Source of the DNA: Gulosibacter molinativorax | GTDB lineage: Bacteria > Actinomycetota > Actinomycetes > Actinomycetales > Microbacteriaceae | NCBI RefSeq assembly: GCF_003010915.2 | Contig: NZ_CP028426.1 | Coordinates: 1,550,001 to 1,614,000 of the forward strand | DNA: 64,000 nt | Direction of reading: 5' to 3' | Shown: one piece after another, positions 29,670-46,602 of the stretch | Layout: each line of letters opens with the position of its first letter | Position numbering within the stretch: the stretch's first letter is position 1 | Notes under the pieces: model-generated | Told to the model about the DNA's origin: nothing | Seen by the model: only the letters and a program-made list of their open reading frames with translations | The model's database searches: none | Program-made: the position numbers and the translations under genes

Positions 29670-31343
29670 TTACGGGCGCAGCGCGCGGCTCGGCACGCGC
29701 AGCGCCGCGGTCGCAAGGTCCTCGCGGTGCACGCCCTTCGTGTGGTCGAAGTGGGGGTCCTCACGCAGCTGCTTGATCAGCGAGTAACCGAGCAGCGCGA
29801 CGATCACCGTGAACGGCAGGGCCGAGAGCATCGCCGCCTGCTGTAGTGCCGCGAGACCGCCGACTACGAGCAGCAGCGCCGCGCAGACACCGGTCAGCAC
29901 GCCCCAGATCGACAGCACCGTTCGGGTCGGGTTGAGCGTGCCTCGCGTCGAGAGCATTCCGAGCACGAACGTGTTCGCATCGGCGCCCGAGACGAAGAAC
30001 AACACGACCAGGATGACCGCAATGACCGAAGTGATCTCGACCAGCGGGAGCTGCGCCAGCATCTCAAAGAACGCCGAGTTGATATCGTTCGCGGCCGCCG
30101 CACCAATGTTGCTGACGCCCGCCATGTCGAGGCGGATGGCGGTGCCGCCGAAGATCGTGAACCACAGGAAGAACACGATGCTCGGAACGACCATGACGCC
30201 GAGCACGAACTCACGGATCGTGCGACCGCGCGAGATCTTCGCGAGGAAGACGCCGACGAAGGCGCCCCAGCTCAGCCACCAGGCCATCATGAAGTAGGTC
30301 CACCACTGCATCCACTGGCTGCCCTCATCGGTCAGCGGCGTGATGAGGCTCACCTGCAGGAAGTCGCTCGAGTACTGGCCGATCGAACGCACGAAGAGGT
30401 TCGTGATGAAGTTCGACGGGCCGGTAAAGAAGACGTAGATGCCGATACCGATCGACAGCAGCATCGTGAACTGGCTGATGTACTTGATACCGCGGTTCAC
30501 GCCCGAGAGCGCCGACAGGGTGAAGAGCACCGTGATGACCGCGATAATGACGATCTGCACGAAGAGATCGGTCGGGATGCCCATGATGCGGTTGAGGCCC
30601 TCGGAGATCTGCGCGGCACCGAGGCCGAGCGAGGTCGTCGTGCCGAAGAGCGTCGCGATAATCGCGAACACGTCGATGAACTTGCCTACCCAGCCGTCAA
30701 CGAGCTTGCCGAGCACCGGTCGGAGCATCGGCGAGATGAGGCCGGTGTTGCCCTTGCGGTGCGTCGAGTAGGCGATCGCGAGCCCGAAGACGCCGAAGAT
30801 CGCCCACGCGTGGGGACCCCAGTCGAAGTACGAGAACTGCATCGCGCGAACCGCGGCTTCGACGGTGCCTGGCTCGGCGAGACCGTGCGGCGGCGCAAAG
30901 AAGTGCGTGATCGGCTCGGCCACACCGTAGCTGATGAGGCCGATGCCCATGACCGCCGAGACGATCATCGCGATCCAGGCCCAGGTCGAGTGCTCGGGGC
31001 GGTCGTCGTCGCTACCGAGGCGGATGCGTCCGAAGCGGCTCGCGGCGAGATAAATGAGCAGGACGATGCAGCCGAAGCCGACGAGCAGGTAGGCCCAGCC
31101 AACCGTCTCGGAGGCCCAGTTCATCGCCGACGTCATGGCTCCGCCGAGAGTCTCGGGCGACAACCCGGCCCACGCGACGAACGCGAGGATGAGCCCGATC
31201 GAGATGTAAAACACCGCGCCCGGGCGGTGGCGCAGTGAGTCGGCGAGCTGCTGGGCCTTGCTCGGCCCGCCTTCGCTGGTGAGGCCCGAAATGGCCATAG
31301 AGCCGAGCTCGGTGTCGGCGTCGTGGTGATTGTTTTGGGTCAT
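29670..31343 (-). CDS. BCCT-family betaine/choline/carnitine-type transporter
   Basis: 557 residues, about 12 membrane segments. Family landmarks: WAWIAMIVSAVMGIGLISYGVAEP, the substrate-region FFAPPHG and FSYFDWGPHAWAIF, GVNRGIKYISQF, and WTYFMMAWWLSWGAFVGVFLAKISRGRTIREF. BCCT carriers move quaternary ammonium compounds with Na+ or H+. ATG 31343 has GGAG 6 nt upstream; a GTG 12 bp earlier is an alternative. It follows the fused flavin reductase gene by 39 bp in one operon, so it may import the substrate of the flavin-dependent pathway. Confidence 0.9.
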   Translation of the reverse strand: MTQNNHHDADTELGSMAISGLTSEGGPSKAQQLADSLRHRPGAVFYISIGLILAFVAWAGLSPETLGGAMTSAMNWASETVGWAYLLVGFGCIVLLIYLAASRFGRIRLGSDDDRPEHSTWAWIAMIVSAVMGIGLISYGVAEPITHFFAPPHGLAEPGTVEAAVRAMQFSYFDWGPHAWAIFGVFGLAIAYSTHRKGNTGLISPMLRPVLGKLVDGWVGKFIDVFAIIATLFGTTTSLGLGAAQISEGLNRIMGIPTDLFVQIVIIAVITVLFTLSALSGVNRGIKYISQFTMLLSIGIGIYVFFTGPSNFITNLFVRSIGQYSSDFLQVSLITPLTDEGSQWMQWWTYFMMAWWLSWGAFVGVFLAKISRGRTIREFVLGVMVVPSIVFFLWFTIFGGTAIRLDMAGVSNIGAAAANDINSAFFEMLAQLPLVEITSVIAVILVVLFFVSGADANTFVLGMLSTRGTLNPTRTVLSIWGVLTGVCAALLLVVGGLAALQQAAMLSALPFTVIVALLGYSLIKQLREDPHFDHTKGVHREDLATAALRVPSRALRP

Positions 31344-31382
31344 GTTCCGCTCCACTTCATTGTGTTTTGCGAGATTTGGTCG

Positions 31383-32339
31383 CTAGAGCTCAGCGAGGCC
31401 GCGGCCGTCGTAGAACTTCGCAGCCTTGTAAATAATTGGGGCGTCATCGGTCGACTCCGCGTACTGCACGCGGCCGATGAAGATCGTGTGGGTCAAGGCC
31501 TGGAAACGTTCCTTGATTTCGACCTCGATTGAGGCCGACGAGCCATCGATGAGCGGGCTGCCGTTCGGGCCCTCGTGCCAGTCGATCTCCGCGAACTTGT
31601 CCGCCGACTTCGAGGCGAAGGTCCCGATTGTCTCGCGCTGCTCGCTCGAGAGCGCGTTGATGCCGATGTGTGAGGAGCGGAAGAGCGACGGGTACGTGGA
31701 CGAAGTCTTCTGCACGCACACGAGCACGAGCGGCGGGTCAAGGGAGACCGAGGAGAACGCGCTGACCGCGAGCCCGCGGGGCTTGCCCTCTTCGTCAGTG
31801 GTAGTCACCACGGTGACGCCCGAGATGAACTGTTTGTTGAACGCTTTCAGCCCCTCGCGCGGCGGCAGCGCGTCGCCGATTGGAGTGACCGCGGGCGCCT
31901 CCTCGAATGCCGATGCGAGCGACGTGAGGCCGAGGTCGCGCAGCAGCGCGGAATCGTCCCAGGTCACTTCTTCTTCGGCGATCTTGCCGTCGCGGATGCG
32001 CGCAAAGTTCGAGCCGTGCGTCTGCAGCTTGGTGCCGGTCGGCGGCACATTGCCGAGCGGCTCGGTAAAGGTACCGTCAGTTCGCCAGAAGATGGCGAGC
32101 TCGTCATCGTTCGCCACGATGCGTTCGATCGTCGTGTGCATGTCCGGGAAAGCCGCGCGCATCTCGTCGATCTCATTGATGAAGTCGTCGAGATTCATGA
32201 CTCGACCCGAGGATGCGCTGGTACGGCGGTAATCACTCGTCACCAGCTCTCGGAGGGCCGTGTACTTGCCCTCGTCCCAGGCCTTCGCCCATGCATGCCT
32301 AACAGCATCCTTGATGTCTTGTTGCATGCCAGTAAGCAT
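31383..32339 (-). CDS. Fusion: SnoaL-like (ester cyclase) domain + flavin reductase domain
   Basis: 318 residues in two parts. Residues 1-135 are a SnoaL/NTF2-like fold (AWDEGKYTALRELVTSDYRR, AAFPDMHTTIERIVANDDELAIFWRTDGT). Residues about 155-318 are a DIM6/HpaC-type flavin reductase (FNKQFISGVTVVTTTD, GLAVSAFSSVSLDPPLVLVCV, HTIFIGRVQYAE). The second part would supply reduced FMN to a partner monooxygenase; the LLM-class enzyme at 36949 in the divergent operon is the obvious partner. ATG 32339 follows a strong GGAGG. The fused first domain is unusual for such reductases. Confidence 0.82.
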   Translation of the reverse strand: MLTGMQQDIKDAVRHAWAKAWDEGKYTALRELVTSDYRRTSASSGRVMNLDDFINEIDEMRAAFPDMHTTIERIVANDDELAIFWRTDGTFTEPLGNVPPTGTKLQTHGSNFARIRDGKIAEEEVTWDDSALLRDLGLTSLASAFEEAPAVTPIGDALPPREGLKAFNKQFISGVTVVTTTDEEGKPRGLAVSAFSSVSLDPPLVLVCVQKTSSTYPSLFRSSHIGINALSSEQRETIGTFASKSADKFAEIDWHEGPNGSPLIDGSSASIEVEIKERFQALTHTIFIGRVQYAESTDDAPIIYKAAKFYDGRGLAEL

Positions 32340-32418
32340 ATGTTCCTCCACTTGCATTCGTCAAATATCAGTCATATCTATGTAATCTACTGGAAACACT
32401 CGGGTCGATTGACACGAT

Positions 32419-32450
32419 CTTGTATGCAAGATACGCTCCTTGTATGCAAG
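32419..32450. promoter_or_regulatory. Pair of CTTGTATGCAAG operators
   Basis: Two identical 12-bp imperfect palindromes, 32419-32430 and 32439-32450, spaced 20 bp centre to centre (about two helical turns). They lie in the divergent promoter of the flavin-reductase/BCCT and GntR operons. The second covers the GntR start codon, which implies autoregulation. Related sites occur at 46567-46602. Confidence 0.72.
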
Positions 32451-33169
32451 CAAAATCCGAGCTTCGCGACGATGCCGTCGCAGCTACCGATCTCCCGCTG
32501 CTGGATCGCCTGCGCGATGCCATCATCAGCGGCAAGTACGAGCCTGGCCAGCTCATGCCCGAGCTCGCGCTGGCCGATGAGTTTGAAGTCAGCCGCACCC
32601 CCATCCGGGAGGCGTTGAAGCAGCTCCAGAACGAGGGCCTCGTCGAGGTGCGCCCGCGCGTGGGCACCTTCGTGCGCATCCCCACCCGCCGAGAGATCGT
32701 CGAGCTGTTCCAGCTCAAGGAGTCGCTCGAGGGGCTTGCCGCCGGGCTCATGGCCCGCCGCGGCCCCACGCCGGAACTCGATATCCTCGAGCGAAACGTG
32801 CGCGACGCCGAGCGCCCCGCCGACCGTCACGACAGCGAAGGCTACGCCGGGCTCGTGCACGACTTCCACTGGACGCTCGTGACGGGCGCCGACAACGTGA
32901 AGCTCAGCGAGCACTACCGGCTGCTCATGAATCAGCTCGCCTACCACCGCATCGTGCTGCGTACCGTCGCTCGCTCGGGCCGCATCGCCGCATCCAACGA
33001 CGAGCATCGCGCCGTCGTCGAAGCCATCCGGTCGAAGGATGCGATGGGCGCGGAGCTCGCGATGCGGCACCACGTGCACGCCTCGAGCCAGCTCGCGCTC
33101 GCGACGCAGGATTTCCCGCTTACGTTTGACCCCCTTAACGCCGACACCAAGACGCAGGAGCCCCGATGA
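32444..33169 (+). CDS. GntR-family regulator, FCD subfamily
   Basis: 241-residue regulator with an N-terminal winged HTH (LLDRLRDAIISGKYEPGQLMPE, VSRTPIREALKQLQNEGLV) and an all-helical FCD ligand domain (about 90-230) with metal-type His/Asp positions (HDFHWTL, NDEHRAVVEAI, MRHHVHAS). Start ATG 32444 is preferred; TTG 32420 is in frame upstream. Its stop overlaps the next start (ATGA), making it the first gene of a seven-gene operon. The CTTG-N4-CAAG sites over its own start are its likely operators. Confidence 0.88.
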   Translation: MQAKSELRDDAVAATDLPLLDRLRDAIISGKYEPGQLMPELALADEFEVSRTPIREALKQLQNEGLVEVRPRVGTFVRIPTRREIVELFQLKESLEGLAAGLMARRGPTPELDILERNVRDAERPADRHDSEGYAGLVHDFHWTLVTGADNVKLSEHYRLLMNQLAYHRIVLRTVARSGRIAASNDEHRAVVEAIRSKDAMGAELAMRHHVHASSQLALATQDFPLTFDPLNADTKTQEPR

Positions 33170-33831
33170 CCACACCTGGAACCGTGCAGCTACCCAAGGC
33201 GAGCGAGCTGCACCGCCTCGCGATCGAATGCGGCGTGCGCAAGCTCTACACCGCGGTGGAAGAGACCCGTGCCGAGAACGGCGCCGGCGTCGCGACGCCG
33301 ATCCTGCAGGCCGCGGCCGTCGCCGTGATCAAGAACCCGTGGGTTGGCACGTCGACCGACACCGACCTCCAGCCCGAGACCAAGCGCATCGCGCCGATCA
33401 TTTCCAAGCTGCTGAGCGACCGCCTGCTCGCGGCGCTCGGTGGCGAGGATGCATCAGCCGACTCAGTCGAGGCGTTCGGCAAGGCCGCCGTCGTCGGAAT
33501 CGCGGGCGAGATGGAGCACGCCGGCGCGCTCATCCACACCCCCTACTTCGGGAACCTCCTGCGCGAGTTTCTCGACGGCACGTCGATCATCTGCTTCTCG
33601 GATGAGCGTGCCGAGGCTGGCGGCGACCTGCGGGTGCCGATGTGGCACAAGTCGCACGCGTCGACCCGCAGCCACTACCAGAGCATGAGCGTGCACCTGG
33701 CGGATGCGCCGCACGCCGACGAGATCGCGATCATTGCGGTCGCTTCCTCCGGCTCCCGACCCTTCCCCCGAATTGGCGACCGCAGCACCGACGGCGTCGT
33801 GACCTCCGAAGTCTTGAAAGGACTCCTGTAA
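33166..33831 (+). CDS. AA_synth (DUF1185-type) family protein, paralog 1
   Basis: 221 residues of the putative amino acid synthesis family. It shares segments with the next gene: EAFGKAAVVGIAGEMEHAGALIHTPYFGN here and EAFGKAAIVGLNGEIEHGSGLIHTLKFGN there, plus IRSHHQS/TRSHYQS and DAPHxDE. No catalytic mechanism is established for the family to my knowledge. It overlaps GntR (ATGA) and the second copy (TAATG), so the two are probably made in equal amounts, perhaps as a heteromer acting on a ring-cleavage product. Confidence 0.72.
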   Translation: MTTPGTVQLPKASELHRLAIECGVRKLYTAVEETRAENGAGVATPILQAAAVAVIKNPWVGTSTDTDLQPETKRIAPIISKLLSDRLLAALGGEDASADSVEAFGKAAVVGIAGEMEHAGALIHTPYFGNLLREFLDGTSIICFSDERAEAGGDLRVPMWHKSHASTRSHYQSMSVHLADAPHADEIAIIAVASSGSRPFPRIGDRSTDGVVTSEVLKGLL

Positions 33832-34382
33832 TGAACCTGCGCAAAGTAGTCACCATCGTTGACGAGACCCTCCTCGAGGGCGGCCGCGAGGTCGACCCAG
33901 TCGCCCGCGTCGCCGTGGTCGCCGCAATCATCGACAACCCGTGGGCGGGCCAGGGGTTCGTCGAGAACCTGAACGCCGGCATCGACGAGGTCGCGCCACA
34001 GCTCGGCCAGCTCCTCGCACCGCGCGTCATGGAGGCCCTCGGCGTACCGCTCGAGGCGTTCGGCAAGGCCGCGATCGTCGGCCTGAACGGCGAGATCGAA
34101 CACGGCTCGGGACTCATCCACACCCTCAAGTTCGGCAACTACTTCCGTGACGCGGCGAACGCATCCACCCTGCTGCCGGCCGTCGAGAAGCGCGGCCCCG
34201 CGGGCACGACGTTCGACATCCCGCTGAAGCACTTCACCGACGCGACGATCCGCTCGCACCACCAGTCCTACGAGGTTCGCATCGCGGATGCACCGCACCC
34301 CGACGAGATCCTCATCGCCCTCGCCGGTGCCTCGCGTGGCCGTCCCCAGCAGCGCCTCGCCGCACTGAACACCGAGCAGTAG
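33831..34382 (+). CDS. AA_synth (DUF1185-type) family protein, paralog 2
   Basis: 183 residues; the ATG at 33831 overlaps the stop of paralog 1 (TAATG). It shares the conserved core with its neighbour (VARVAVVAAIIDNPWAGQ, AFGKAAIVGLNGEIEHGS, TIRSHHQSYEVRIADAPHPDE) but is shorter at both ends. Function unknown; tandem paralogs argue for a two-subunit complex or for division of labour. Confidence 0.72.
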   Translation: MNLRKVVTIVDETLLEGGREVDPVARVAVVAAIIDNPWAGQGFVENLNAGIDEVAPQLGQLLAPRVMEALGVPLEAFGKAAIVGLNGEIEHGSGLIHTLKFGNYFRDAANASTLLPAVEKRGPAGTTFDIPLKHFTDATIRSHHQSYEVRIADAPHPDEILIALAGASRGRPQQRLAALNTEQ

Positions 34383-34388
34383 GCGCTG

Positions 34389-35174
34389 ATGACTGCATCC
34401 CGCGACACCCCCGTCGTGCTGCTGCACGGCGTTGGGCTCGACCGCAGCATGTGGCAGTCGACCACCGCGCGGCTCGCGCAGCGCGGTCGCGACGCCGTGG
34501 CCCTAGATCTTCCGGGCCACGGCGCGCAGCCGCCACTCACCTCGAAGACCTCGCTTCGCGAACTGGCGGAGGATGTGCTCGCGCGGATGCCCGAGGGCGA
34601 AAGTCACCTGGTCGGCTTCTCCCTTGGCGCATTGATCGCCCAGCACATTGCGCGCTACTTCCCCGAGCGCATCGCTTCGCTCACCTCGGTGAGCAGCGTG
34701 TGCCAGCGCACCCCGGAGGAGTCGGCGTCGGTACTCGAGCGCCTCGAGACCGCGCGCTGCGACATCCAGGCGAGCACCGAGCGCTCCATCCACCGCTGGT
34801 ACCCACAGGGCACCACGGTCAGCGCCGAGGAGATCGCCGAAACCCGCCGCATCCTCGAGGCGAACGACCCGGACTCTTTCCTGTATGCGTACGAGGTCTT
34901 CGCGACCGGCGACCAGGAGCTCGCGGACGAGCTGCAGCGCATCCACGCCCCGGCCCTCGCCATCACCGGCGAGCTCGACCCCGGCTCCACGCCGGAGATG
35001 ACCCGCCGGCTCGCCGCGGCCATCCCCGGCTGCCGCGCGAGCATCGTTCCGGATGCGCGACACATGCTCCCGCTCGAGGCCACCGACACGTTCGTGGCCG
35101 AGCTGAACACACTCTTTGACGCCGCCAATTCCGACGACGCCACCACCGACAACTTGGATAAGGAGCTCCGATGA
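34389..35174 (+). CDS. Alpha/beta hydrolase (RutD/PcaD-like fold)
   Basis: 261-residue single-domain hydrolase. It has LLHGVGLDRSMW (oxyanion region), nucleophile Ser78 in GFSLGA, an Asp in TGELDPGSTPEM and the catalytic His in DARHMLPLE. Similar enzymes open lactones or hydrolyse enamine, carbamate or ester bonds in catabolic pathways. It lies 6 bp after the AA_synth pair and overlaps the aldehyde dehydrogenase start (ATGA). In this operon, hydrolysis of a ring-cleavage lactone or N-formyl intermediate is the likely kind of job; the substrate is not known. Confidence 0.83.
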   Translation: MTASRDTPVVLLHGVGLDRSMWQSTTARLAQRGRDAVALDLPGHGAQPPLTSKTSLRELAEDVLARMPEGESHLVGFSLGALIAQHIARYFPERIASLTSVSSVCQRTPEESASVLERLETARCDIQASTERSIHRWYPQGTTVSAEEIAETRRILEANDPDSFLYAYEVFATGDQELADELQRIHAPALAITGELDPGSTPEMTRRLAAAIPGCRASIVPDARHMLPLEATDTFVAELNTLFDAANSDDATTDNLDKELR

Positions 35175-36652
35175 CTGAACGACTCGGACACTTCATCAAT
35201 GGCGAAACGCGTGCCCCCGCGGGTGGCACGTACTTCGAAAGCACGAACCCGGCCACCCTCGAGGTGCTCTACGAGGCCGCGCGCGGCGACGCCGCCGACG
35301 TCGAGGCCGCCGTATCTTCCGCGAAGCGTGCGTTCAAGGCACCCTCGTGGGCGGGACTGACCGCGACGCAACGCGGCAAGCTGCTGCGCCGCCTCGGCGA
35401 CCTCATCGGTCAGAACGCTGAGGAGCTCGCTCACTTCGAGAGCCTCGACAACGGCAAGCTGTTGCGCGAGATGCGCGGCCAGCTCGCGACGCTGCCCGAG
35501 TACCTCTACTACTACGGCGGGCTCGCCGACAAGGTGCAGGGGTCGCAGATCCCTACGAACAACCTCGCGGTGCTGAACTACACCCAGCGCGAACCGCTCG
35601 GCGTCGTCGGTGCGATCACCCCTTGGAACTCGCCGCTCACGCTCACGACCTCGAAGCTTGCCCCGGCGCTGGCCGCGGGCAACACGATCGTGATCAAGCC
35701 GAGCGAGTACACGTCGCGCACCATCCTGCGCTTCGCGGAACTCGCATCCGAGGCAGGCTTCCCCGACGGCGTCGTGAACGTCGTCACGGGTCTCGGTGCC
35801 GAGGCTGGCTCCGCGCTCGTCGACCACCCGGACATCGCGAAGATCTCGTTCACCGGCTCGACCGCGACCGGCTCGGCCATCGCATCCAAGACCGCGGCAC
35901 GCTTCATCGGCTCGACCCTCGAGCTCGGTGGCAAGAGCCCGAACATCGTGTTCGACGACGCCAACGTCGAGAACGCGGCCATGGGCGTCATCGCCGGCAT
36001 CTACGCTGCGGCGGGTCAGACCTGCATTGCCGGTAGCCGCGTGTTCGCGCAGCGCGGGGTCTACGACGAGCTGCTCGAGCGCGTCGCTGACCGCGCCCGC
36101 TCGATCAAGATCGGTGACCCGCTGGATGCCGAGACTGAGCTCGGCCCGCTCGCCTTCGGCAACCAGCTCGAGAAGGTGCAGTACTACGTCGACCTCGGCG
36201 TCGACGAGGGCGCGACGCTGTTCGCGGGCGGCAAGCGCCCCGAACTCGAGCTGCCCGGCTACTTCTTCTCGCCGACCGTCCTCACCGACGTCAACAACGA
36301 CATGCGCGTGGTGCGTGAGGAGATCTTCGGCCCGGTCGCCGCGATCATGCCGTTCGACGACGAAGAAGAGGTCGTCGGCCTCGCGAACGACACCGAGTAC
36401 GGCCTCGCCGCGGGTGTCTGGACGCGCGACCTCGCACGCGCCCACCGGATGTCACGCCGTCTCGAAGCTGGCACTGTCTGGATCAACATGTACCGCGCGA
36501 TGTCACCGATGTCGCCGCGCCAGGGCTTCAAGAACTCGGGCGTCGGTATCGAGCACGGCATCGAGTCGATGCACGAGTACACGCGCCTCAAGAGCGTGTG
36601 GATCAACACCGACGAGAGCCCGCTCGGCGACCCGTTCGTCATGCGCGGCTAA
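35171..36652 (+). CDS. Aldehyde dehydrogenase
   Basis: 493-residue NAD(P)-dependent enzyme with PWNSPLTLTTSKLAPALAAGN, Glu in LELGGKSPN, catalytic Cys285 in GQTCIAGSR and EEIFGPVAAI. Unusual near the end is the long MYRAMSPMSPRQGFKNSGVG. AAGGAG precedes ATG 35171. It oxidises an aldehyde in the operon's pathway, perhaps a semialdehyde released after ring cleavage. The specificity cannot be read from sequence. Confidence 0.9.
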   Translation: MTERLGHFINGETRAPAGGTYFESTNPATLEVLYEAARGDAADVEAAVSSAKRAFKAPSWAGLTATQRGKLLRRLGDLIGQNAEELAHFESLDNGKLLREMRGQLATLPEYLYYYGGLADKVQGSQIPTNNLAVLNYTQREPLGVVGAITPWNSPLTLTTSKLAPALAAGNTIVIKPSEYTSRTILRFAELASEAGFPDGVVNVVTGLGAEAGSALVDHPDIAKISFTGSTATGSAIASKTAARFIGSTLELGGKSPNIVFDDANVENAAMGVIAGIYAAAGQTCIAGSRVFAQRGVYDELLERVADRARSIKIGDPLDAETELGPLAFGNQLEKVQYYVDLGVDEGATLFAGGKRPELELPGYFFSPTVLTDVNNDMRVVREEIFGPVAAIMPFDDEEEVVGLANDTEYGLAAGVWTRDLARAHRMSRRLEAGTVWINMYRAMSPMSPRQGFKNSGVGIEHGIESMHEYTRLKSVWINTDESPLGDPFVMRG

Positions 36653-36674
36653 CCGCTAAGGAAAGGTCTGCGAC

Positions 36675-36872
36675 ATGCCAATCATCGACATTTCGATTGC
36701 CGAGGGCCGCTCCCCCGAGCAGCTCCGCGCCCTGATCGACGGCGTCCACCGTGTCGCCGAAGAGACGGTCGACGCCGCTCCCGAGAACATCACCGTCCTC
36801 ATCCGCGAGGTCCCGCACGAGCACTGGGCCCGCACCAACGTCACTATCGCCGAACGCAACGCCAGTAAGTAA
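36675..36872 (+). CDS. 4-oxalocrotonate tautomerase-family protein
   Basis: 65-residue small tautomerase. The initiator Met is followed by Pro (catalytic Pro1 after processing), then IIDISIAEGRSPEQLRALI and an IREVPHEHW segment with an Arg typical of the 4-OT fold. It probably isomerises an enol or enamine produced by ring opening. It follows the aldehyde dehydrogenase by 22 bp with AAGGAAAGG as ribosome site. Confidence 0.85.
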   Translation: MPIIDISIAEGRSPEQLRALIDGVHRVAEETVDAAPENITVLIREVPHEHWARTNVTIAERNASK

Positions 36873-36948
36873 GCGACCGGTCTAGCAACTGAAGCCTCGG
36901 TCACCGGGGCAACGCATCCATCCGGATGCATTAGAGAAAGGAATTGAC

Positions 36949-37995
36949 ATGCGCTTCTCGCTCTTCATTCACATGGAACGCTGGGACGACTCGATCAGCC
37001 ACGAGCAGCACTGGAAGAACCTCGTCGAGCTGACCCTCCTCGCCGAGGCGGGCGGTTTCAAGACCGTCTGGATCGGTGAGCACCACTCGATGGAGTACAC
37101 CGTTTCGCCGAACCCGATGTCGCAGCTCGCGTACCTCGCGGCACGCACGAGCACGATCCGCCTCGGTGCCGGCACGATCATCGCGCCGTTCTGGAACCCG
37201 ATCCGCGTCGCCGGCGAGACCGCGCTGCTCGACGTGATTTCGGACGGTCGCGCCGAGGTTGGCCTCGCGCGTGGTGCCTACCAGTTCGAGTTCGACCGCA
37301 TGATGAACGGGATGCCCGCCGCTGAGGGTGGCGACTACCTCCGCGAGATGGTGCCAGCCGTGCGCGAACTCTGGCAGGGCGACTACGCCCACGACGGCAA
37401 GATCTGGCAGTTCCCGACCTCGACGAGCGTGCCGAAGCCAGTGCAGAAGCCGACTCCCCCGATGTGGCTCGCCGCGCGCTCGCCCGAGACGCACGATTTC
37501 GCGGTTGCGAACGGCTGCAACGTCATGGTTACCCCGCTCATGAAGGACGACAACGAGGTGGTCGACCTCGTGAACAAGTTCGAGACGGCGATCGCCGCGC
37601 ACCCCGAGGTCGAGAAGCGCCCCGAGATCATGGTGCTGCGTCACACCTACGTGCACGACGAGTCGGACCCCGAGGGCTGGCGCGTCGGCACCGACGGCAT
37701 CAACAAGTACTACCGCACGTTCGACGCGGTCTTCGGCAACAAGGAAGAGGCGGTCAACGGCTTCCACGAGCCGAGCCCCGAGTCGAAGTTCGCCGAGCGC
37801 GAGGACTTCAAGCCCGAGTCGCTGCACCGCTCCGCGATGGTTGGTACCCCTGACGAGGTAACGGTTCGACTGCGCGAATACGAGAAGCTCGGCGTTGACG
37901 AGTTCAGCTACTGGACCGACAACTCGCTCTCGCACGAGGAGAAGAAGCGCTCGCTCGAGCTCTTCATCGAGCACGTCGTGCCGCAGTTCTCGTAG
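36949..37995 (+). CDS. LLM-class (luciferase-like) flavin-dependent monooxygenase
   Basis: 348 residues with the bacterial-luciferase TIM-barrel pattern: FKTVWIGEHH (about 37-46), LAARTSTIRLGAGTIIAPFWNPIRVA, ISDGRAEVGLARG and, late, VGTPDEVTVRLREYEKLGVDEF. It needs reduced FMN from a reductase, most simply the fused flavin reductase of the divergent operon. Known members in similar operons open N-heterocycles (trigonelline, pyridine, alkylpyrazine). AAAGGAA precedes ATG 36949; a strong terminator follows at 38006, so it ends the operon. Confidence 0.87.
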   Translation: MRFSLFIHMERWDDSISHEQHWKNLVELTLLAEAGGFKTVWIGEHHSMEYTVSPNPMSQLAYLAARTSTIRLGAGTIIAPFWNPIRVAGETALLDVISDGRAEVGLARGAYQFEFDRMMNGMPAAEGGDYLREMVPAVRELWQGDYAHDGKIWQFPTSTSVPKPVQKPTPPMWLAARSPETHDFAVANGCNVMVTPLMKDDNEVVDLVNKFETAIAAHPEVEKRPEIMVLRHTYVHDESDPEGWRVGTDGINKYYRTFDAVFGNKEEAVNGFHEPSPESKFAEREDFKPESLHRSAMVGTPDEVTVRLREYEKLGVDEFSYWTDNSLSHEEKKRSLELFIEHVVPQFS

Positions 37996-38005
37996 TTTGT
38001 GCTGC

Positions 38006-38044
38006 GTAGGGGGTGCATCCTGGTTTTCAGGATGCACCCCCTAC
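38006..38044 (+). terminator. Terminator after the monooxygenase operon
   Basis: Perfect 17-bp stem (38006-38022 with 38028-38044) and a 5-nt loop GTTTT, 10 bp after the monooxygenase stop. Confidence 0.82.
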
Positions 38045-38056
38045 TTGGTGGGCGTC

Positions 38057-39337: not shown

Positions 39338-39341
39338 CGAC

Positions 39342-40838
39342 CTACGAGTCGAAGCCGAGGCCGAGCGCATCCATCAGGTGCAGCCACGCGTTACGCTTCC
39401 CGGTGCGATCCTCGGCTGCCATCGACCACCTCGTGAGGTTCACACCGAGCGCCCGAACCGGCTCGGGCGGGAACGGCACCGGCTTCTTCCGAATCATCTC
39501 GAGCCGCGTGCGTTCAGTCGCCTCGCCCGCGAGCAGATCGAGCATGACGTCCGCACCAAATCGAGTCGCCGCGACCCCGAGCCCCGTGTACCCGAGCGCG
39601 TAGGCGACGCGGCCGCCCCGTGCAAGTCCCGCGGTGAGCGAGAATCGAGTGGATGAGTCAATCATCCCGCCCCATTGATGGGTGAAGCGCACGTCGCGCA
39701 GCTGCGGATAGGTCGTTCGGAAGTTGCGTTCGAGCGTCGCGAAAGTGGCCTCCCGCTGGGTCAGCGCCTCGCTGCGTCGGGAGCCATAGTGATAGATCGC
39801 GTCGTAGCCTCCCCAGAGGATGCGGCCATCAGCGGTCTTGCGAAAGTAGTGGAACTGGTTGCCGGCATCGGAGAGCCCCTCGTCACCCGTCCAACCGATG
39901 GCCGCGAACTGCTCGGCGGTGAGCGGCTCGGTCACGAGCACCATGTCGTAGACGGGAATCGTCAGAAGCGACAGGCGCCGCAGAAGCGTCGGGTAGGCAT
40001 TGGTCGCGAGCGCGACCTGCGACGCGGTCACAAAGTTTGGCGCGCCGACCGCACCGGGCTGGCTGGTAACGGCCCGGAGCCTGCCGCCGGAGTGATCAGT
40101 GGTCGTGCCTGTTCCGCCAGTTCCTGCGCCGCCAGTTCGAGCCCCGCCAGCGCGCGTGCCGCCGGAGCTACCCCCGTCCGGCCTGCCGCCCCCGTCGAGC
40201 GCCGCGACCACCGTGCCCTCGTAGATCTCGACGCCGAGCGCGTCACACGCATCCGCCAGGCCGCGGGCAAGTTTCACCGGGTCGATCACGCTCGTGTGCG
40301 GCTCGCGCAGCGCGGCCACAAACGCGGGCGACGCAGTCACCTCGTGGATGCGCTCATCACCAAAGAATTCGACGTCGCCTTCCTCGTGTTGCCGCAGAAT
40401 CTCTGCCATGTCGCGCAGCGCATCCGCCTCCCAGTCGGTACGCGCGAAGGCGATGCCGCCGCCATCGCGCCAGTCGCAGTCGATGCCGTACCGCGCGATG
40501 GCCTCGCGCATCCCGCGCACATTTTCGTGGCCGAGGCGCACCAGCTCGGTGATCTCGTTGGGCCAACGGTCGAGCCCGTTGAGCAGCCCGTGGGTGAGGC
40601 TCGGCTCGACGAAGCCGCCGTTTCGGCCGCTCGCCGCGTGGCCAACGCGCTTGCCCTCAAGCAGCACGACGCGCCGATCGGGCTCGCGCTCCTTCGCGTG
40701 CAGCGCGGTCCACAGCCCCGTGAATCCCCCGCCAATGACGAGCAGGTCGGTCTCTATATCGCGGTCCAGGGCAGGATGCGGCACCCGCCCGGGCGCGTGG
40801 TCAAGCCAAAAGGACATCCGAATTCGCTTCGTGGACAC
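39342..40838 (-). CDS. FAD-dependent amino acid/amine oxidoreductase (DAO family)
   Basis: 498 residues. FAD motif LLVIGGGFTGLWTAL (about 30-45), GRNGGFVEPSLTHG, and a C-terminal GLGVAATRFGADVMLDL as in PuuB/DAO-type oxidases. Such enzymes oxidise secondary or primary amines. A GTG at 40838 sits 5 nt after GGAGG and is preferred over ATG 40817. A Gly/Thr-rich insert (about 208-242) interrupts the substrate domain. It could act on an amine released by the neighbouring pathway, or be independent. Confidence 0.8.
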   Translation of the reverse strand: MSTKRIRMSFWLDHAPGRVPHPALDRDIETDLLVIGGGFTGLWTALHAKEREPDRRVVLLEGKRVGHAASGRNGGFVEPSLTHGLLNGLDRWPNEITELVRLGHENVRGMREAIARYGIDCDWRDGGGIAFARTDWEADALRDMAEILRQHEEGDVEFFGDERIHEVTASPAFVAALREPHTSVIDPVKLARGLADACDALGVEIYEGTVVAALDGGGRPDGGSSGGTRAGGARTGGAGTGGTGTTTDHSGGRLRAVTSQPGAVGAPNFVTASQVALATNAYPTLLRRLSLLTIPVYDMVLVTEPLTAEQFAAIGWTGDEGLSDAGNQFHYFRKTADGRILWGGYDAIYHYGSRRSEALTQREATFATLERNFRTTYPQLRDVRFTHQWGGMIDSSTRFSLTAGLARGGRVAYALGYTGLGVAATRFGADVMLDLLAGEATERTRLEMIRKKPVPFPPEPVRALGVNLTRWSMAAEDRTGKRNAWLHLMDALGLGFDS

Positions 40839-41039
40839 CGTTGCCTCCGTCTCGTGGATGCGAGCCTCACTCTCGACAATGCCGCCCCCTGGCCGCAGAA
40901 TCAAGAATAAGTTCCCGATCAGCACTACTTTTTTACGACATTCGCTCGATCGACCACGACAGCGGGCCTGCAGCAGGGTAACTTCTATGACAAACCGCTT
41001 GCCCGAATAGCGGGCATTCCTTCAACGGCGAGGGTCCTC

Positions 41040-42557
41040 ATGAGCGCACCACAAAATGTCACAGACACCGGCCACATCCATGTCGGCAAGGGTCTCAACT
41101 CGAACGCGCTCGGCGTCGTGGGCAGCACGGTCATCGGGCTCGCATCCACCGCACCGCTCTATTCGCTCGCGGCGACGCTGGGATACGTGATCCTCGCGAT
41201 CGGCGCCCAGGCCCCGGTCGCGTTCCTCGCCGCGGCCATCCCGATGGTCTTCGCGGCGCTCGCCTACCAGGAGCTCAACCGCGAGATGCCGGACTGCGGC
41301 ACGACATTCGTGTGGGGCACAAAAGCGTTCGGGCCCGTCGTCGGCTGGATCGGCGGCTGGGCCGTGGCCGTGTCGGCGGTGATGGTGCTCGCGAATGTGT
41401 CGGAGATCGCCGGTAAGTATCTCTGGTACCTCGTCGGCCGAAACGACCTTGCAGATAACCGGGTGGTCGTCGTGATCACCGGCTGTGTGTTCATCGCCGT
41501 CATGACCTTCATCTCCACGATCGGCGTGCAGATCGGCGAGAAGCTGCAGATGGTGCTCATGGTGATCCAATACATCGCACTCGCGGCGTTCGGGATCCTC
41601 GCGTTCGCCGGCGCGATCAACGGCTCGAGCCCCTCGGCAGTGCCCTTCGACATCGAGTGGTTCAACCCCGCGGCGGTCGAATCCTGGTCTGGGTTTATCG
41701 AGGCGGTCCTACTGTGCCTCTTTATCTACTGGGGCTGGGACACGTGCCTCGCGCTCAACGAGGAAACGAAGAACCCACGCAAGACGCCCGGCCGCGCCGC
41801 CCTCGCGACCATCGTCATCCTGATCGTCACCTACGTCGGCATCTCGGTTGCCGTGATGATGTACGCGGGTTTCGGCACCACCGGCTTCGGCCTCACGAAC
41901 GAGGCAAATCTGGATGACGTCTTTACCGTTTTGCGGGATGCGCTCTTCGGCCCCTGGGGTTGGTTCCTGATCCTCGCGATGCTGGTGTCCGGCGCATCCT
42001 CGACCCAGACTACGATTCTGCCGACCGCTCGAGGCACGCTCTCAATGGCCGTCTACCGCGCGCTGCCCGCGAAGTTCGCTTCCATTCATCCGAAGTGGAA
42101 GACTCCGTGGTTCTCGACCACCGTCATGGGAATCTCCGCAATTGTGTACTACGCGGTGATGTCGCTGATCTCCGAGAACGTCCTCGCCGACTCGCTCACC
42201 TCGATGGGTCTCGCCGTCGCGCTCTACTACGCGATCACCGCGTTCGCGTGCGTCTGGTACTACCGCGACACGCTCTTCACGACCACCCGGAACTTCTTCA
42301 TGCGGGGTCTTCTCCCGTTCCTCGGCGGCGTCATGTTGACGTATGCGTTCGTGCAGTCGGCGATCGACATGATCAGCACCGACTACAGCATGACGGTGCT
42401 GCTCGGCATCGGCGGCGCGTTCGTGATCGGCGTCGGCGCGCTCGCCCTCGGGTTCGTGCTCATGGGCATCTGGTGGATGTTCCCAAACTCGAAGCCATTC
42501 TTCCGCGGCGAAAGCCTCAACCGGGAGACACCGGTGCTCGTTCCCGACGAGGGATAG
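41040..42557 (+). CDS. APC-superfamily amino acid permease
   Basis: 505 residues, about 12-13 hydrophobic segments. Typical APC start (LNSNALGVVGSTVIGLASTAPLYSLAATLGYV), then CGTTFVWGTKAFGPVVGWIGGW and FIYWGWDTCLALNEETKNPRKTPGRAALATI. Imports amino acids or amines. Divergent from the amine oxidase gene, so the two may share substrate and control. A small hairpin (41000-41016) lies in the leader 24 bp before the start. Confidence 0.86.
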   Translation: MSAPQNVTDTGHIHVGKGLNSNALGVVGSTVIGLASTAPLYSLAATLGYVILAIGAQAPVAFLAAAIPMVFAALAYQELNREMPDCGTTFVWGTKAFGPVVGWIGGWAVAVSAVMVLANVSEIAGKYLWYLVGRNDLADNRVVVVITGCVFIAVMTFISTIGVQIGEKLQMVLMVIQYIALAAFGILAFAGAINGSSPSAVPFDIEWFNPAAVESWSGFIEAVLLCLFIYWGWDTCLALNEETKNPRKTPGRAALATIVILIVTYVGISVAVMMYAGFGTTGFGLTNEANLDDVFTVLRDALFGPWGWFLILAMLVSGASSTQTTILPTARGTLSMAVYRALPAKFASIHPKWKTPWFSTTVMGISAIVYYAVMSLISENVLADSLTSMGLAVALYYAITAFACVWYYRDTLFTTTRNFFMRGLLPFLGGVMLTYAFVQSAIDMISTDYSMTVLLGIGGAFVIGVGALALGFVLMGIWWMFPNSKPFFRGESLNRETPVLVPDEG

Positions 42558-42661
42558 TCGCTCGGTCTCGGTAACGCATGTGACGGCCAAATCTGCGGGG
42601 CTGCCACGCGAGGGTTCGGCCAATTGTGGCAACGCGCACCCGTTACTGAAAGACTCAAGTA

Positions 42662-43510
42662 ATGACAACTCCGTCTATTTCGACTAAACATCACGTACCC
42701 GCTGAAATTTCCCGCTCGTGGCTGCTCTTATCGGCCCGCGAGGAGGACCGCTTCGATAAGGCGCGAGCCTCGCGAAGCGACCAGCTCATCCTCGACCTTG
42801 AGGATGGTGTGGATCCTTCCCATAAGGACAGCGCGCGTGCGTCGGTGCTCAAGTGGTTCTCCGACGGCAATGACGCGTGGGTTCGCATCAACGTGCACGG
42901 CACGTCGTTCTGGGAGGACGACATCGAACTGCTCCGCGGCAACGAGGGGCTCTCGGGAGTGATGCTCGCGAAGGTCGAGCGGCCCGAGGAAGTCACCGAA
43001 ACCTTCGAGCGCCTCGGCGGCAAGACGCCGGTGATTCCGCTCATCGAGTCGGCGCTCGGGATCGAGGCTGCCGTCGCGATCGCGCAGGCGAAGGGCGTCT
43101 TCCGCCTCGCCTTCGGCAGCGGCGACTACCGCCGCGACACCGGCACGTCTGCTACGGCCCTTGCGATGGCGTACCCGCGCTCCCGCCTCACGGTTGCGAG
43201 TGCAATCGCCGGGCTGACCGGCCCGATCGACGGCCCGACGGTGAGCAAGAGCCACCCGATCCTGCGCGAGCAGTCGGAGACCGCGGTGAGCCTCGGGCTA
43301 ACGGGCAAGCTGTGCCTCGACACGAATCAGCTGCCCGTGATTAACGAGACCTTCAGCCCGCCGGCTTCGGATGTGGGCTGGGCGCGCGACTTTCTCAACG
43401 AGTTCAACGAGCGCGGACGCGTCGTGCGCGACGGCAGCGACCTGCCACGTCTGCACCGCGCCGAGCGCATCGACGGCCTCGCCCGCGCCTTCGGCATCGA
43501 GCCGGTGTAG
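42662..43510 (+). CDS. HpcH/HpaI (CitE-type) aldolase / CoA-ester lyase family protein
   Basis: 282-residue TIM-barrel lyase of the CitE family: LLLSAREEDRFDKARASRSDQLILDLEDGVDPSHK (family PGN/S-x-x-x-K region altered), MLAKVERPEEV, IPLIESALGIEAA, AFGSGDYRRDTG and RLTVASAIAGLTGPIDGPT. Members split or form CoA esters such as malyl- or citramalyl-CoA. It starts 104 bp after the APC permease. The acyl substrate is unknown. Confidence 0.8.
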   Translation: MTTPSISTKHHVPAEISRSWLLLSAREEDRFDKARASRSDQLILDLEDGVDPSHKDSARASVLKWFSDGNDAWVRINVHGTSFWEDDIELLRGNEGLSGVMLAKVERPEEVTETFERLGGKTPVIPLIESALGIEAAVAIAQAKGVFRLAFGSGDYRRDTGTSATALAMAYPRSRLTVASAIAGLTGPIDGPTVSKSHPILREQSETAVSLGLTGKLCLDTNQLPVINETFSPPASDVGWARDFLNEFNERGRVVRDGSDLPRLHRAERIDGLARAFGIEPV

Positions 43511-43669
43511 GCGGCCTGAGCGGATAGCAGTCGTGGTGCTGCGAAGTGGATCGAGTAGCTACGAAGCGGCGTGTTGAGGTAAATGACCGCCACCGTGGAG
43601 AGCCATGGCATCGTTCAAGCTGCTGAGCTAAAATAGTCGAAGCTCGCCCCCGCAGGGGGTTAGAGAAGT

Positions 43670-43708
43670 GAAGGCCGGGGCCCCGACGTTTAGCGGGACC
43701 CGGCCTTC
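43670..43708. terminator. Hairpin between convergent genes
   Basis: 10-bp arms GAAGGCCGGG and its complement (43670-43679, 43699-43708), with the loop itself able to pair, between the CitE-like gene and the convergent DUF3800-like gene. A second short GC stem (CCCCC/GGGGG near 43647-43659) lies just before it. Confidence 0.65.
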
Positions 43709-43713
43709 GCGCA

Positions 43714-44313
43714 TCACGCGCCGCCCGGAACCCAGACGATTGTTGAATTGGGCAGGAAAGGATTACCGCCTTCCTCGTGCTGAATAATCGCAGGGCCGAG
43801 CGAGCCCAAAACGACATCAGGAATCCACAACAACGGCTCGTTGGCGGGGTCTTCATGTTCGACCCATACATCACGCGGAATTTTCCCTGCCCCTCGAAGA
43901 GCATCGATTAGACGTCGATCTCGCTTGTTCAAATTTTCTTCGCGGCGTTCCATCACGAAGTGAGAAACAGTAAGCAAGTTCGCTTCCCAAATGGCGCGTT
44001 CAATGCATTTCGCTCGAGCTCGCTCCTGCTTGTTGACGCTTCCGAAGGGCCCAAATGCGACGATCAACTGTTCGAGTCCCAACTGCGCAATCGATTCCGA
44101 GACTGCGGTTCTTTCTCTGAAATTGAGATCCCGCCAGTGCAGTTTGATGCCCCGGTGAGGAAGTCGACGAACCAGGGATCTTATACGGTCATCATCTTCG
44201 GGACTGATCAAGGTCGCCGCTAGCAAATAGAAGTTCTCACTTGAGTTGTCTCTCGAGGACCGCATACTCTCATCGACCCAAGCATGGAAGTTCGGTTGAC
44301 GGTCCGCGGTCAT
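43714..44313 (-). CDS. DUF3800-like protein
   Basis: 199 residues; ATG 44313 preceded by AAGGGG. N-terminal HAWVDES, then FYLLAATLISPEDD, GIKLHWRDLN and a mid-protein HFVMERREENL match the RNase H-like DUF3800 pattern. No cellular role is established. It stands alone between terminators and interrupts the catabolic region, which suggests a later insertion. A longer DUF3800 protein occurs at 62621. Confidence 0.6.
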   Translation of the reverse strand: MTADRQPNFHAWVDESMRSSRDNSSENFYLLAATLISPEDDDRIRSLVRRLPHRGIKLHWRDLNFRERTAVSESIAQLGLEQLIVAFGPFGSVNKQERARAKCIERAIWEANLLTVSHFVMERREENLNKRDRRLIDALRGAGKIPRDVWVEHEDPANEPLLWIPDVVLGSLGPAIIQHEEGGNPFLPNSTIVWVPGGA

Positions 44314-44376
44314 TTTGCCCCTTCCATGCACACGTACTCGACAAGGTAGGGCTGGCCTACGACATCGCGAAAAGAA

Positions 44377-44420
44377 CCGCCCCGGCTCGAGACAGAACTA
44401 ACTGTCTCGAGCCGGGGCGG
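44377..44420. terminator. Strong terminator of the NCS1/hydrolase operon
   Basis: Perfect 19-bp stem (44377-44395 with 44402-44420) and loop AACTAA, 23 bp past the stop of the isochorismatase-type gene on the minus strand. Confidence 0.82.
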
Positions 44421-44443
44421 TCATGGTTTGCGCGGGGGCGCCG

Positions 44444-44980
44444 CTAGTCGACGACCTTCGCGGCGAGGAGCTCGTCGGTGGTCGTGAGCTCGACCATCGG
44501 CGCGAGCATTCCCATGAGGTTCAGCGCCTGGTCGTGCACCTCGGCAGTCGCGCCTGCGCACGCATCCGTCACCACGGTCACGGTACGACCCGCGTCCACT
44601 GCCGGGAGTACCGTCGAGAGCACGCAGCAGTCGGTCGCGACGCCGCAGACCACGAGGTCGTGACCCTCGGTGAGTGAGGCGAGCTCGTCGCCCCACTTGC
44701 CGAACGTCGGCAAGGTGACCACCGCATCCGACGCCGGGACGGGCAAGGTGATGTCCCAGAGCTCGGAGTCCTCGTCGACGCGGAATTCGCTCCAGCGGTC
44801 GTAGTACGGACCCCACGCGCCCTTCTCCTGGGGATCCCGCACGAATTTCGTCCAGATCACATCCCCGGAGTGCGCCTCGGCGAGGCGGGCGACCTGCTCG
44901 GCAGCGGCGTCGTAACCCACGCACTGCCAGCCGCCCTCGCGGCGAAACGCCTCCTGCATGTCGATGATGACGAGCTTCAC
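44444..44980 (-). CDS. Isochorismatase-family cysteine hydrolase
   Basis: 178 residues with the full Asp-Lys-Cys triad: Asp7 in LVIIDMQ, Lys95 in TFGKWGDEL and Cys119 in GVATDCCVLST. This family hydrolyses amides and ureido compounds (nicotinamide, ureidoacrylate, maleamate, N-carbamoyl groups). It follows the NCS1 permease by 9 bp, under the CTTG-N4-CAAG operators, pointing to a nitrogen-containing imported substrate or a ring-opened amide. Confidence 0.88.
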   Translation of the reverse strand: MKLVIIDMQEAFRREGGWQCVGYDAAAEQVARLAEAHSGDVIWTKFVRDPQEKGAWGPYYDRWSEFRVDEDSELWDITLPVPASDAVVTLPTFGKWGDELASLTEGHDLVVCGVATDCCVLSTVLPAVDAGRTVTVVTDACAGATAEVHDQALNLMGMLAPMVELTTTDELLAAKVVD

Positions 44981-44989
44981 GGTGATGTC

Positions 44990-46420
44990 CTAACGTCCGG
45001 TGGTCTCGTGCAGGCTAACCGCTTCGGTCGCGGTCAGGTGATCCTTCGGCTTCGACAGCGGCGGGAACTGGCGCACGATGAAGTATGCGACTGCCGCACC
45101 GATCACACCGGCGACGTATGAGACGTCACCCAACGCCGACGTTGCTTCCGAGAACGGACCAACCCAGAACGACGTGTTCCAGAACAGCGACGAGAAGAGG
45201 CAACCGAAGATCCAGGCGAAGAAGCCCCACTCAATCTTGCGGCTCTTGTCGAAGAGCTCGGTCGTCGCCTGTTGCCCGAGGTGTCGCGAGCGCGTGTAGT
45301 AGTCGAGCAGCAGCACGGTGCTGAACGGCACGACAAGGTATGCGAGCACGTTGAGGAAGTCGTAGAAGCTGCCGTATGGGTCGCCCGCCATGAGCAGCGC
45401 GATGCCGAGGCTGATGACCGCGGTTACGGCAACGCCGACGACTCGGTTAACCGGGATGCCGATCGTCAGCAGCGACAGCGCGCCGCCGTAGAGGTTCATC
45501 GCGCTCACGGGCAGGGTCGACAGCACAACGGTGACCATCGCGAGTGGCGCCCACGATCCGGTCAGCTCGCTGAGCGCCTCGATCGCGCCGAGCTCGCCTG
45601 CGAAGCTCGACACGAGTACGCCGATGCCGCCGAGCCACATGAGCGAGACGAAGCTACCGCCAGCCGTGTAGGTCGCGACCTTCGTGTGGCTGACCGAGCG
45701 CGGCAGGTAGCGCGAGAAGTCGGAGGCGAAGGGCGTCCAGGTCATCACGTACGCGAAGAAGAAGCCGGCGAAGGTGACCCAGCTGCCGAAGCCGCCCTGG
45801 AAGATGGTCGCGTCGCGGTTCAGCTCAACGCCGAGGTCGATCTGCGAGAGCGACAGGAAGGTGATGAACGCGAAGAGGATGGCGAGCACGACGCTCGCGA
45901 TCTTGTTGATGAGGTGGATGAGGTTGTGGCCCCACACCGCGAAGATCGCCTGGACGGCGTAGATCACGACCGCGCCGGTCCAGAAGGGGATGTCGACCAG
46001 AGTCTGCAGCGCCAGGACCGCGAAGACGGTGTTGACTGCGGTCCAACCCATCGCGGACACGATCGTGAGCAGGGCGATCGGCACGTAGTTGGCGTAGTAG
46101 CCCATCGGGCCACGGCCCTGTACCTGCTGCGGAACACCGAGCTTCGCGCCGATACCGGCGAGCACGCCCATGACGATCGCCCCGAGCAGCGAGCCCGCCG
46201 CGACCGCGGTCAGGCCCTCGATCACGGTGAGCCCGAAGGATGCGGAGAAGAAGCCCGAGACCATCACTGCCAGGACCATGTTCGCCGCGAACCACAGCGT
46301 GAACTGCTGGCGCGGGTGACCGTGGCGCTCGCTGTCGGGAATCGCTTCGGTTCCGTGTGGCTCGACCTTGGTTAGGGAGCTGCCGTATGCAGACTCGGTG
46401 TCTGCAGATGAATTCGACAT
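44990..46420 (-). CDS. NCS1-family nucleobase/heterocycle permease
   Basis: 476 residues, about 12 membrane segments, related to cytosine/purine/hydantoin permeases: FTLWFAANMVLAVMVSGFF, GRGPMGYYANYVPIALLTIVSAMGWTAVNT, FFFAYVMTWTPFASDFSRYLPR and VVPFSTVLLLDYY. Imports nitrogen heterocycles. The frame is open further upstream but ATG 46420 starts the family-like N-terminus. Transcribed with the hydrolase downstream. Paired operator sites lie about 150 bp upstream. Confidence 0.87.
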   Translation of the reverse strand: MSNSSADTESAYGSSLTKVEPHGTEAIPDSERHGHPRQQFTLWFAANMVLAVMVSGFFSASFGLTVIEGLTAVAAGSLLGAIVMGVLAGIGAKLGVPQQVQGRGPMGYYANYVPIALLTIVSAMGWTAVNTVFAVLALQTLVDIPFWTGAVVIYAVQAIFAVWGHNLIHLINKIASVVLAILFAFITFLSLSQIDLGVELNRDATIFQGGFGSWVTFAGFFFAYVMTWTPFASDFSRYLPRSVSHTKVATYTAGGSFVSLMWLGGIGVLVSSFAGELGAIEALSELTGSWAPLAMVTVVLSTLPVSAMNLYGGALSLLTIGIPVNRVVGVAVTAVISLGIALLMAGDPYGSFYDFLNVLAYLVVPFSTVLLLDYYTRSRHLGQQATTELFDKSRKIEWGFFAWIFGCLFSSLFWNTSFWVGPFSEATSALGDVSYVAGVIGAAVAYFIVRQFPPLSKPKDHLTATEAVSLHETTGR

Positions 46421-46566
46421 CAGTGTTGACCTCGCTTGTGCCATGCCACTGCATCGCTGACAGTGGCGTAATGAGACAAGACTAGTCAGCTGTGGCATAC
46501 ATGTCAATCCAGTTACCGGCAGCATCGCACCAATTCACGATAACTAACGAGTGAAAACGGCAATTT

Positions 46567-46602
46567 CTTGCATACAAGAAAGCGCAACCTCTTGCGTACA
46601 AG
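46567..46602. promoter_or_regulatory. Pair of CTTGYRTACAAG operators upstream of the NCS1 operon
   Basis: CTTGCATACAAG (46567-46578) and CTTGCGTACAAG (46591-46602), 24 bp centre to centre, upstream of the NCS1 gene. They match the consensus of the two sites at the GntR promoter (CTTGTATGCAAG), so the GntR at 32444 probably controls this operon 14 kb away. Confidence 0.68.

Follow-up and report, generated by a model that had tools for sequence, protein, structure and literature searches.

A putatively GntR-controlled gene cluster of Gulosibacter molinativorax: probably an actinobacterial variant of tgn, a pathway of trigonelline catabolism

We analysed a 64,000-nt stretch (hereafter the window) of the 3.5-Mb genome of Gulosibacter molinativorax (assembly GCF_003010915.2, contig NZ_CP028426.1, positions 1,550,001 to 1,614,000), with gene identities assigned by Pfam and NCBIfam profile scans of its open reading frames (ORFs). 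This analysis revealed a locus which, with a probability that we put at about 0.7, is a GntR-controlled regulon for the catabolism of trigonelline (N-methylnicotinate), corresponding to an actinobacterial version of the tgn system. It is probably a variant of that known pathway and not a wholly new one. Trigonelline, an alkaloid of coffee, is widespread as an osmolyte in plants and is also found in marine samples. The genes of the locus, each of those named in a preliminary description of this DNA being present with strong Pfam support, are listed in Table 1.

The annotated tgn copy of Acinetobacter sp. PK01 was used for comparison, standing in for TgnB of Acinetobacter baylyi ADP1, which we take to be the reference organism of the pathway; three further Acinetobacter proteins listed under this name share 90-92% identity with PK01 TgnB. 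The PK01 plasmid, on which tgnA-tgnB-tgnC are annotated, carries a divergent GntR gene, AA_synth, hydrolase, tgnA, tgnB, tgnC, NCS1, a porin-like ORF and a succinate semialdehyde dehydrogenase (SSADH) gene. The window locus shares with it (i) the GntR regulator, (ii) the luciferase-like flavin monooxygenase (LLM; 47.7% identity to TgnB over 348 aa), (iii) an aldehyde dehydrogenase, a putative TgnC counterpart (ALDH; 44% to TgnC), (iv) AA_synth (the two proteins 43.5% and 44.7% to TgnF), (v) a flavin reductase, a putative TgnA counterpart (40.7% to TgnA over 150 aa of the reductase domain, the domain architecture being different), (vi) a hydrolase, a putative TgnD counterpart (30.7% to TgnD, same fold family) and (vii) the NCS1 permease (24%). 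It differs in the N-terminal SnoaL domain of the reductase (in the tgn reductase Flavin_Reduct comes first), in the presence of a tautomerase, two AA_synth proteins, a BCCT importer and an isochorismatase, and in its unlinked SSADH. No SnoaL domain was found among the scanned reductases of PK01, Sinorhizobium meliloti and Agrobacterium. The preliminary description had presented the locus as a distinct, candidate new regulon. This claim has to be weakened: since AA_synth, GntR, hydrolase, ALDH and NCS1 are already present in PK01 tgn, they do not set the locus apart. The differences lie in the fusion of SnoaL to the reductase, the tautomerase, the second AA_synth copy, BCCT and the isochorismatase. 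The proposal of N-methylpyridinium or betaine degradation by a two-component luciferase-type oxygenase, for which trigonelline had already been named as a model, is well supported.

In a phylogenetic tree of the LLMs, built with 27 of 81 loci (L009 and L012-L091), the window clade (28 rows) and the TgnB clade (9 rows) are sister groups, separate from an Agrobacterium/Rhizobium pair, with a long-branch warning on the side of that pair. In the alignment, 101 columns are fixed (at least 95%) in both clades, and 96 of them carry the identical residue; the five differences are mild (Y/F, M/F, F/Y, G/A and V/L). The outgroup, a poor one of two sequences, is fixed for another residue at 20 of the shared columns. 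A sequence search for a solved structure of a trigonelline monooxygenase found none, the nearest chain being 7bip (3e-31).

The distribution of LLM types in Pseudomonas also bears on the substrate. The LLM of the window has 1542 homologues at E<=1e-20 (the best named one among the 120 listed, from a Gulosibacter metagenome-assembled genome, shares 87%), and the best 80 of the 579 loci from the genome scan comprise 43 actinobacterial and 37 Pseudomonas loci. LLMs of Pseudomonas (P. japonica, P. syringae and others) share 71-74% with that of the window; a short reductase is encoded nearby in 36 of the 37 loci and a minus-strand NCS1 in 33. Their AA_synth proteins show 56-57% to TgnF and their NCS1 permeases 55-57% to the tgn NCS1, while an SSADH with 69-71% to that of PK01 is present in four of the seven genomes fetched; the ALDH and hydrolase are about equally distant from the window and tgn types. 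A search of 15 Pseudomonas genomes, drawn from the 80 loci, found in all 15 an AA_synth that matches the P. japonica protein at 88-100%, within 45 kb of the LLM on the same contig in 11. In the seven Pseudomonas genomes fetched, the hydrolase gene comes next after AA_synth; ALDH, reductase and GntR genes come after it where the stretches are long enough. This split cluster resembles the window in its LLM clade, hydrolase, ALDH, AA_synth, GntR and NCS1, but differs in its tgn-type AA_synth, NCS1 and SSADH and its short reductases; neither tautomerase nor BCCT was found in the stretches scanned. Across 119 Pseudomonas genomes, LLM and AA_synth occurred together in 63, AA_synth alone in one and LLM alone in none, both being missing from 55. 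Two of the 63 (G069 and G102) have a partial LLM match (residues 1-267 and 161-347) with AA_synth present. All 20 genomes examined (of the 80 loci) contain one TgnB relative (E<=1e-60), which is of the window type. The pattern looks like a natural gene swap of the putative ring-opening LLM.

Growth data are available for the P. syringae group: according to Table 2 of PMC10890144, trigonelline was used by 53 of 53 kiwifruit isolates when it was the sole carbon source. In the P. syringae genome that we searched, the window-type LLM is the one TgnB relative, while AA_synth-hydrolase-ALDH-reductase-GntR stand on a different contig, with no SSADH in the stretch fetched.

A genome-wide search for the palindrome CTTGYRTRCAAG gave four sites, all of them at the locus, and the reversed-pattern control gave none. 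With at most one mismatch, CTTGYATRCAAG has four sites in the window against a shuffle mean of 0.23, and none of 100 shuffles reached four; this figure is optimistic because the pattern was derived from the sites themselves, and the absence of further genomic sites is the stronger fact. All four, predicted operators of the GntR/FCD regulator, lie at two promoter regions: one pair (32419 and 32439) between the reductase and GntR genes, and one (46567 and 46591) upstream of NCS1-isochorismatase. The earlier claim of one GntR-type operator family thus holds, as the same four sites are recovered in the window and genome-wide. The most likely start of GntR is the ATG at 32444, within operator 2 (the ORF list has TTG at 32420), and the second AA_synth gene starts at 33831, overlapping the stop of the first.

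Table 1. Features of the locus, with positions in the window
Feature	Position	Strand	Support or remark
Perfect 22-bp inverted repeat	29610..29658		Likely bidirectional terminator, gap between MFS gene and BCCT
BCCT-family importer, 561 aa	29670..31355	-	Pfam BCCT 2.2e-173
Flavin reductase with N-terminal SnoaL domain, 324 aa	31383..32357	-	SnoaL 2.8e-27 and Flavin_Reduct 1.3e-36 in a single ORF; putative TgnA role
Operator 1 (predicted)	32419..32430		CTTGTATGCAAG
Operator 2 (predicted)	32439..32450		CTTGTATGCAAG; overlaps likely GntR start
GntR/FCD regulator	32444..33169	+	Pfam
AA_synth protein 1	33166..33831	+	Pfam AA_synth 3.2e-52; TgnF-like paralogue
AA_synth protein 2	33831..34382	+	Pfam AA_synth 2.2e-59 from own start; TgnF-like
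Alpha/beta hydrolase	34389..35174	+	Abhydrolase_1 1.7e-21; putative TgnD role
Aldehyde dehydrogenase	35171..36652	+	Aldedh 4.4e-172; putative TgnC role
4-OT family tautomerase, 65 aa	36675..36872	+	Tautomerase 3e-17; Pro right after start Met
LLM flavin monooxygenase	36949..37995	+	Bac_luciferase 1.2e-61; putative TgnB role
Perfect 17-bp inverted repeat	38006..38044		Likely terminator of plus-strand operon
Isochorismatase-family hydrolase	44444..44980	-	Isochorismatase 6.6e-27
NCS1 permease	44990..46525	-	Transp_cyt_pur 9.8e-32
Operator 3 (predicted)	46567..46578		CTTGCATACAAG
Operator 4 (predicted)	46591..46602		CTTGCGTACAAG

The predicted regulon consists of BCCT-reductase, GntR-AA_synth-AA_synth-hydrolase-ALDH-tautomerase-LLM and NCS1-isochorismatase, the last unit being included despite its distance of 6.4 kb because the same operator lies upstream of it. 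The five ORFs at 38186-44331 (FAD oxidoreductase, DAO, amino-acid permease, HpcH/HpaI lyase and a DUF3800-like ORF below its cut-off) were considered as members and rejected; they appear to lie outside the regulon, because they have no operator and are set off by the hairpin that follows the LLM gene. The preliminary description, whose coordinates take in these ORFs, has to be narrowed in this respect. Beside the clusters of relatives, the only counterpart found for these genes was a 39% permease in L020; seven other relative loci gave only 24-28% matches to the FAD oxidoreductase, DAO or permease. Within 38186-43510, the FAD monooxygenase resembles ArsO (269 bits, cut-off 425) and is accompanied by the DAO-type oxidoreductase, the amino-acid permease and a RipC-like lyase.

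The gene set is conserved in the actinobacterial loci, for which counts are given with n=41, setting aside L034 and L050, which are truncated, and L009, which lies on a plasmid. All 41 contain GntR, AA_synth and ALDH, while the reductase is present in 39/41 and the hydrolase in 37/41. A tautomerase between ALDH and LLM was found in 37 of 42 loci (L009 included; profile built from BLAST hits and the window), BLAST alone giving 25/41. SnoaL occurs in 33/41 loci, fused within one ORF in 16, and twin AA_synth genes were resolved in 29/41, the ORF picking behind both of these counts being crude. In the genome of G. molinativorax itself, the only AA_synth genes found are the two of the locus. A linked SSADH, which is not an obligatory part of a tgn cluster, was found in four of the 41 relatives, and in a plasmid copy of Arthrobacter an SSADH gene adjoins the cluster. 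A NUDIX hydrolase gene stands beside the cluster at L009:5881-6830 (with a riboflavin kinase) and at L037:16591-17154; these neighbours perhaps serve flavin supply. The LLM is present in 3 of 11 genomes of the genus, this one counted, and in 5 of the 60 genomes of the whole relatives search; since so few carry it, the island is accessory. Operator-like palindromes, by a loose rule, occur in 14 of 50 stretches from relatives (47 divergent regions and three whole loci), and of the two own-genus loci fetched L164 has one and L163 none; the operator is therefore kept in only part of the family.

As to uptake, BCCT (at least 50%; 29/41) and NCS1 (at least 35% to a reference; 16/41) seem interchangeable, because 25 of the 41 actinobacterial loci have BCCT alone, 12 NCS1 alone, four both and none neither. 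The BCCT protein of the window scored 553 bits against the glycine betaine equivalog model, under its cut-off of 650; its presence seems to point to a charged betaine substrate. A relative of the isochorismatase lies near the LLM cluster in 8/41 actinobacterial and 8/37 Pseudomonas loci. The proteins of the two groups are distant (27-29%), a sign that such enzymes were recruited more than once, for a feeder step that perhaps acts on a trigonelline amide. The four Pseudomonas proteins aligned have before the SAF motif a lysine, which presumably has a role in isochorismatases; it is absent from the eight actinobacterial proteins aligned, where a conserved KWG is found instead. We tentatively suggest, though with considerable doubt, that the NCS1-isochorismatase arm is such a feeder, by which an amide form (e.g. 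1-methylnicotinamide) would be imported and deamidated to trigonelline. A single GntR regulon might then channel methylated vitamin B3, whether betaine or amide, to a common route of ring opening, with the SnoaL-reductase, tautomerase and twin AA_synth handling the unstable ring-opened intermediate.

From gene content, predicted operators, homology, synteny and co-occurrence we infer the substrate and every step of the following scheme. GntR would act on the paired palindromic operators, from which the substrate or one of the first products probably releases it, and the zwitterion would be imported by BCCT, or in other strains by NCS1. The SnoaL-reductase would pass reduced flavin (FMNH2) to the LLM, which would open the ring as TgnA and TgnB do in the first step of trigonelline degradation (PMC8269262). 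The tautomerase and SnoaL probably accelerate the exchange between isomers of the opened product (enol/aldehyde or Z/E), after which ALDH would oxidise the ring-opened aldehyde or hydroxylactone. The hydrolase would then act on the oxidised product, giving succinate semialdehyde, methylamine, formate and CO2. This is the chemistry that Perchat et al. reportedly described for the tgn pathway in 2018. The last SSADH step would be encoded elsewhere in the genome, where a 44% match exists. The AA_synth pair may assist as TgnF does: according to PMC7913881, TgnF is a homologue of a DUF1185/AA_synth protein and stimulates TgnE-dependent oxidation of succinate semialdehyde, and the same authors observed no such stimulation for their own DUF1185 protein.

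Several observations weigh against trigonelline as the substrate. The hydrolase (31%) and NCS1 (24%) are far from their tgn counterparts, the LLM is only 48% identical to TgnB, and the GntR protein aligns to the tgn GntR along only one third of its length. In the ALDH tree the window protein falls with the Agrobacterium/Rhizobium N324 type and apart from TgnC (96/92), and the third LLM/ALDH/AA_synth clade found in these organisms shows that the toolkit diversifies. No SSADH was found under the operator, the best genomic match (44%, C1:2044564) being unlinked. The fork that places the Pseudomonas LLMs inside the actinobacterial clade has a support of 82/58, and the one that places their AA_synth beside TgnF has 83/71. 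The P. syringae strains of the growth study differ from the genome searched here, and its authors state that their trigonelline results differ from those of others for pv. actinidiae (PMC10890144). The literature searched contained no activity or growth data for actinobacterial copies; no paper on actinobacterial trigonelline genes was among the matches listed, which does not prove absence.

The additional enzymes could be a sign of another substrate. The same chemistry might be directed at another N-alkylpyridinium compound (e.g. 1-methylnicotinamide, N-methylisonicotinate or homarine), served by the tautomerase, SnoaL and isochorismatase. These enzymes are not annotated in the PK01 cluster, and the isochorismatase shares its operator with NCS1 and recurs in both actinobacterial and Pseudomonas loci; we nevertheless consider this rather unlikely, as the fixed positions of the LLM are nearly identical to those of TgnB and in Pseudomonas the LLM has been combined with tgn-type partners. 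Homarine is further disfavoured by the argument, made in PMC8269262, that it is sterically unfit for TgnAB, and no homarine gene cluster was found in the published literature searched. Opening of a neutral N-heterocycle (nicotinate, pyridine or pyrimidine) imported by NCS1 is improbable: NCS1 permeases usually transport neutral heterocycles and 12/41 actinobacterial loci have NCS1 without BCCT, but 25/41 have BCCT without NCS1, which suggests a charged betaine, and the annotated tgn cluster itself includes an NCS1. Least credible of all is an unrelated LLM oxidation, e.g. of alkanesulfonates, among chance neighbours. Among the matches listed, many LLM relatives bear sulfonate-type or generic names and some close ones are called SsuD-like (of the 120 listed, three JGI entries carry the name trigonelline monooxygenase, given purely by homology). 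However, the SsuD assignment was rejected, 25 of the 31 NCBIfam LLM matches being listed and all of these, SsuD-type models included, lying far under their cut-offs, and the conservation of the gene set speaks against chance. Trigonelline thus remains the likeliest substrate because of the sister-clade position of the LLM, the 96/101 identical columns, the apparent swap in Pseudomonas, the single TgnB relative in 20/20 genomes and the growth of P. syringae-group isolates.

If this assignment is true, a function would be given to an LLM family of Actinobacteria and of about half of the sampled Pseudomonas genomes (63/119), the ring-cleaving enzyme would prove exchangeable between two forms of this pathway, and the AA_synth family, whose name refers to amino-acid synthesis, would gain a further link to trigonelline catabolism.

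Related gene sets were found in other systems. A tgn-type set near nifT on pSymA of S. meliloti shares with PK01 71-72% for LLM, ALDH and AA_synth, 51% for the hydrolase and 41% for the reductase. It contains, like the window, AA_synth, hydrolase, reductase, LLM and ALDH, but differs in having an ABC importer and a NIPSNAP protein and in its LLM, which is 72% identical to PK01 TgnB and 49% to the window LLM. A paper of 1991 is said, by its title, to place trigonelline genes within the symbiotic region of pSym, and the pSymA cluster probably represents these trc genes. The Rut pyrimidine pathway has a similar logic, combining an LLM, a reductase, an isochorismatase-family amidase and an alpha/beta hydrolase; to our knowledge it lacks both an aldehyde dehydrogenase and AA_synth. 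A Rut assignment was rejected, the RutF, RutD and RutB models scoring far under their cut-offs and RutA being absent from the 25 of 31 LLM matches listed. In Agrobacterium and Rhizobium (L094 and L148), the third clade of LLM, ALDH, hydrolase, AA_synth and carboxymuconolactone decarboxylase stands beside betaine- or amino-acid-type ABC transporters. A single 599-residue ORF of Mesorhizobium WSM1497 (L145:6205-8004), annotated as an alpha/beta hydrolase, replaces the hydrolase and reductase, which suggests a fusion of the two. In the window itself, another LLM gene of weak similarity (34% identity, matching residues 23-176) is located at about 49113-49577, 11 kb downstream.

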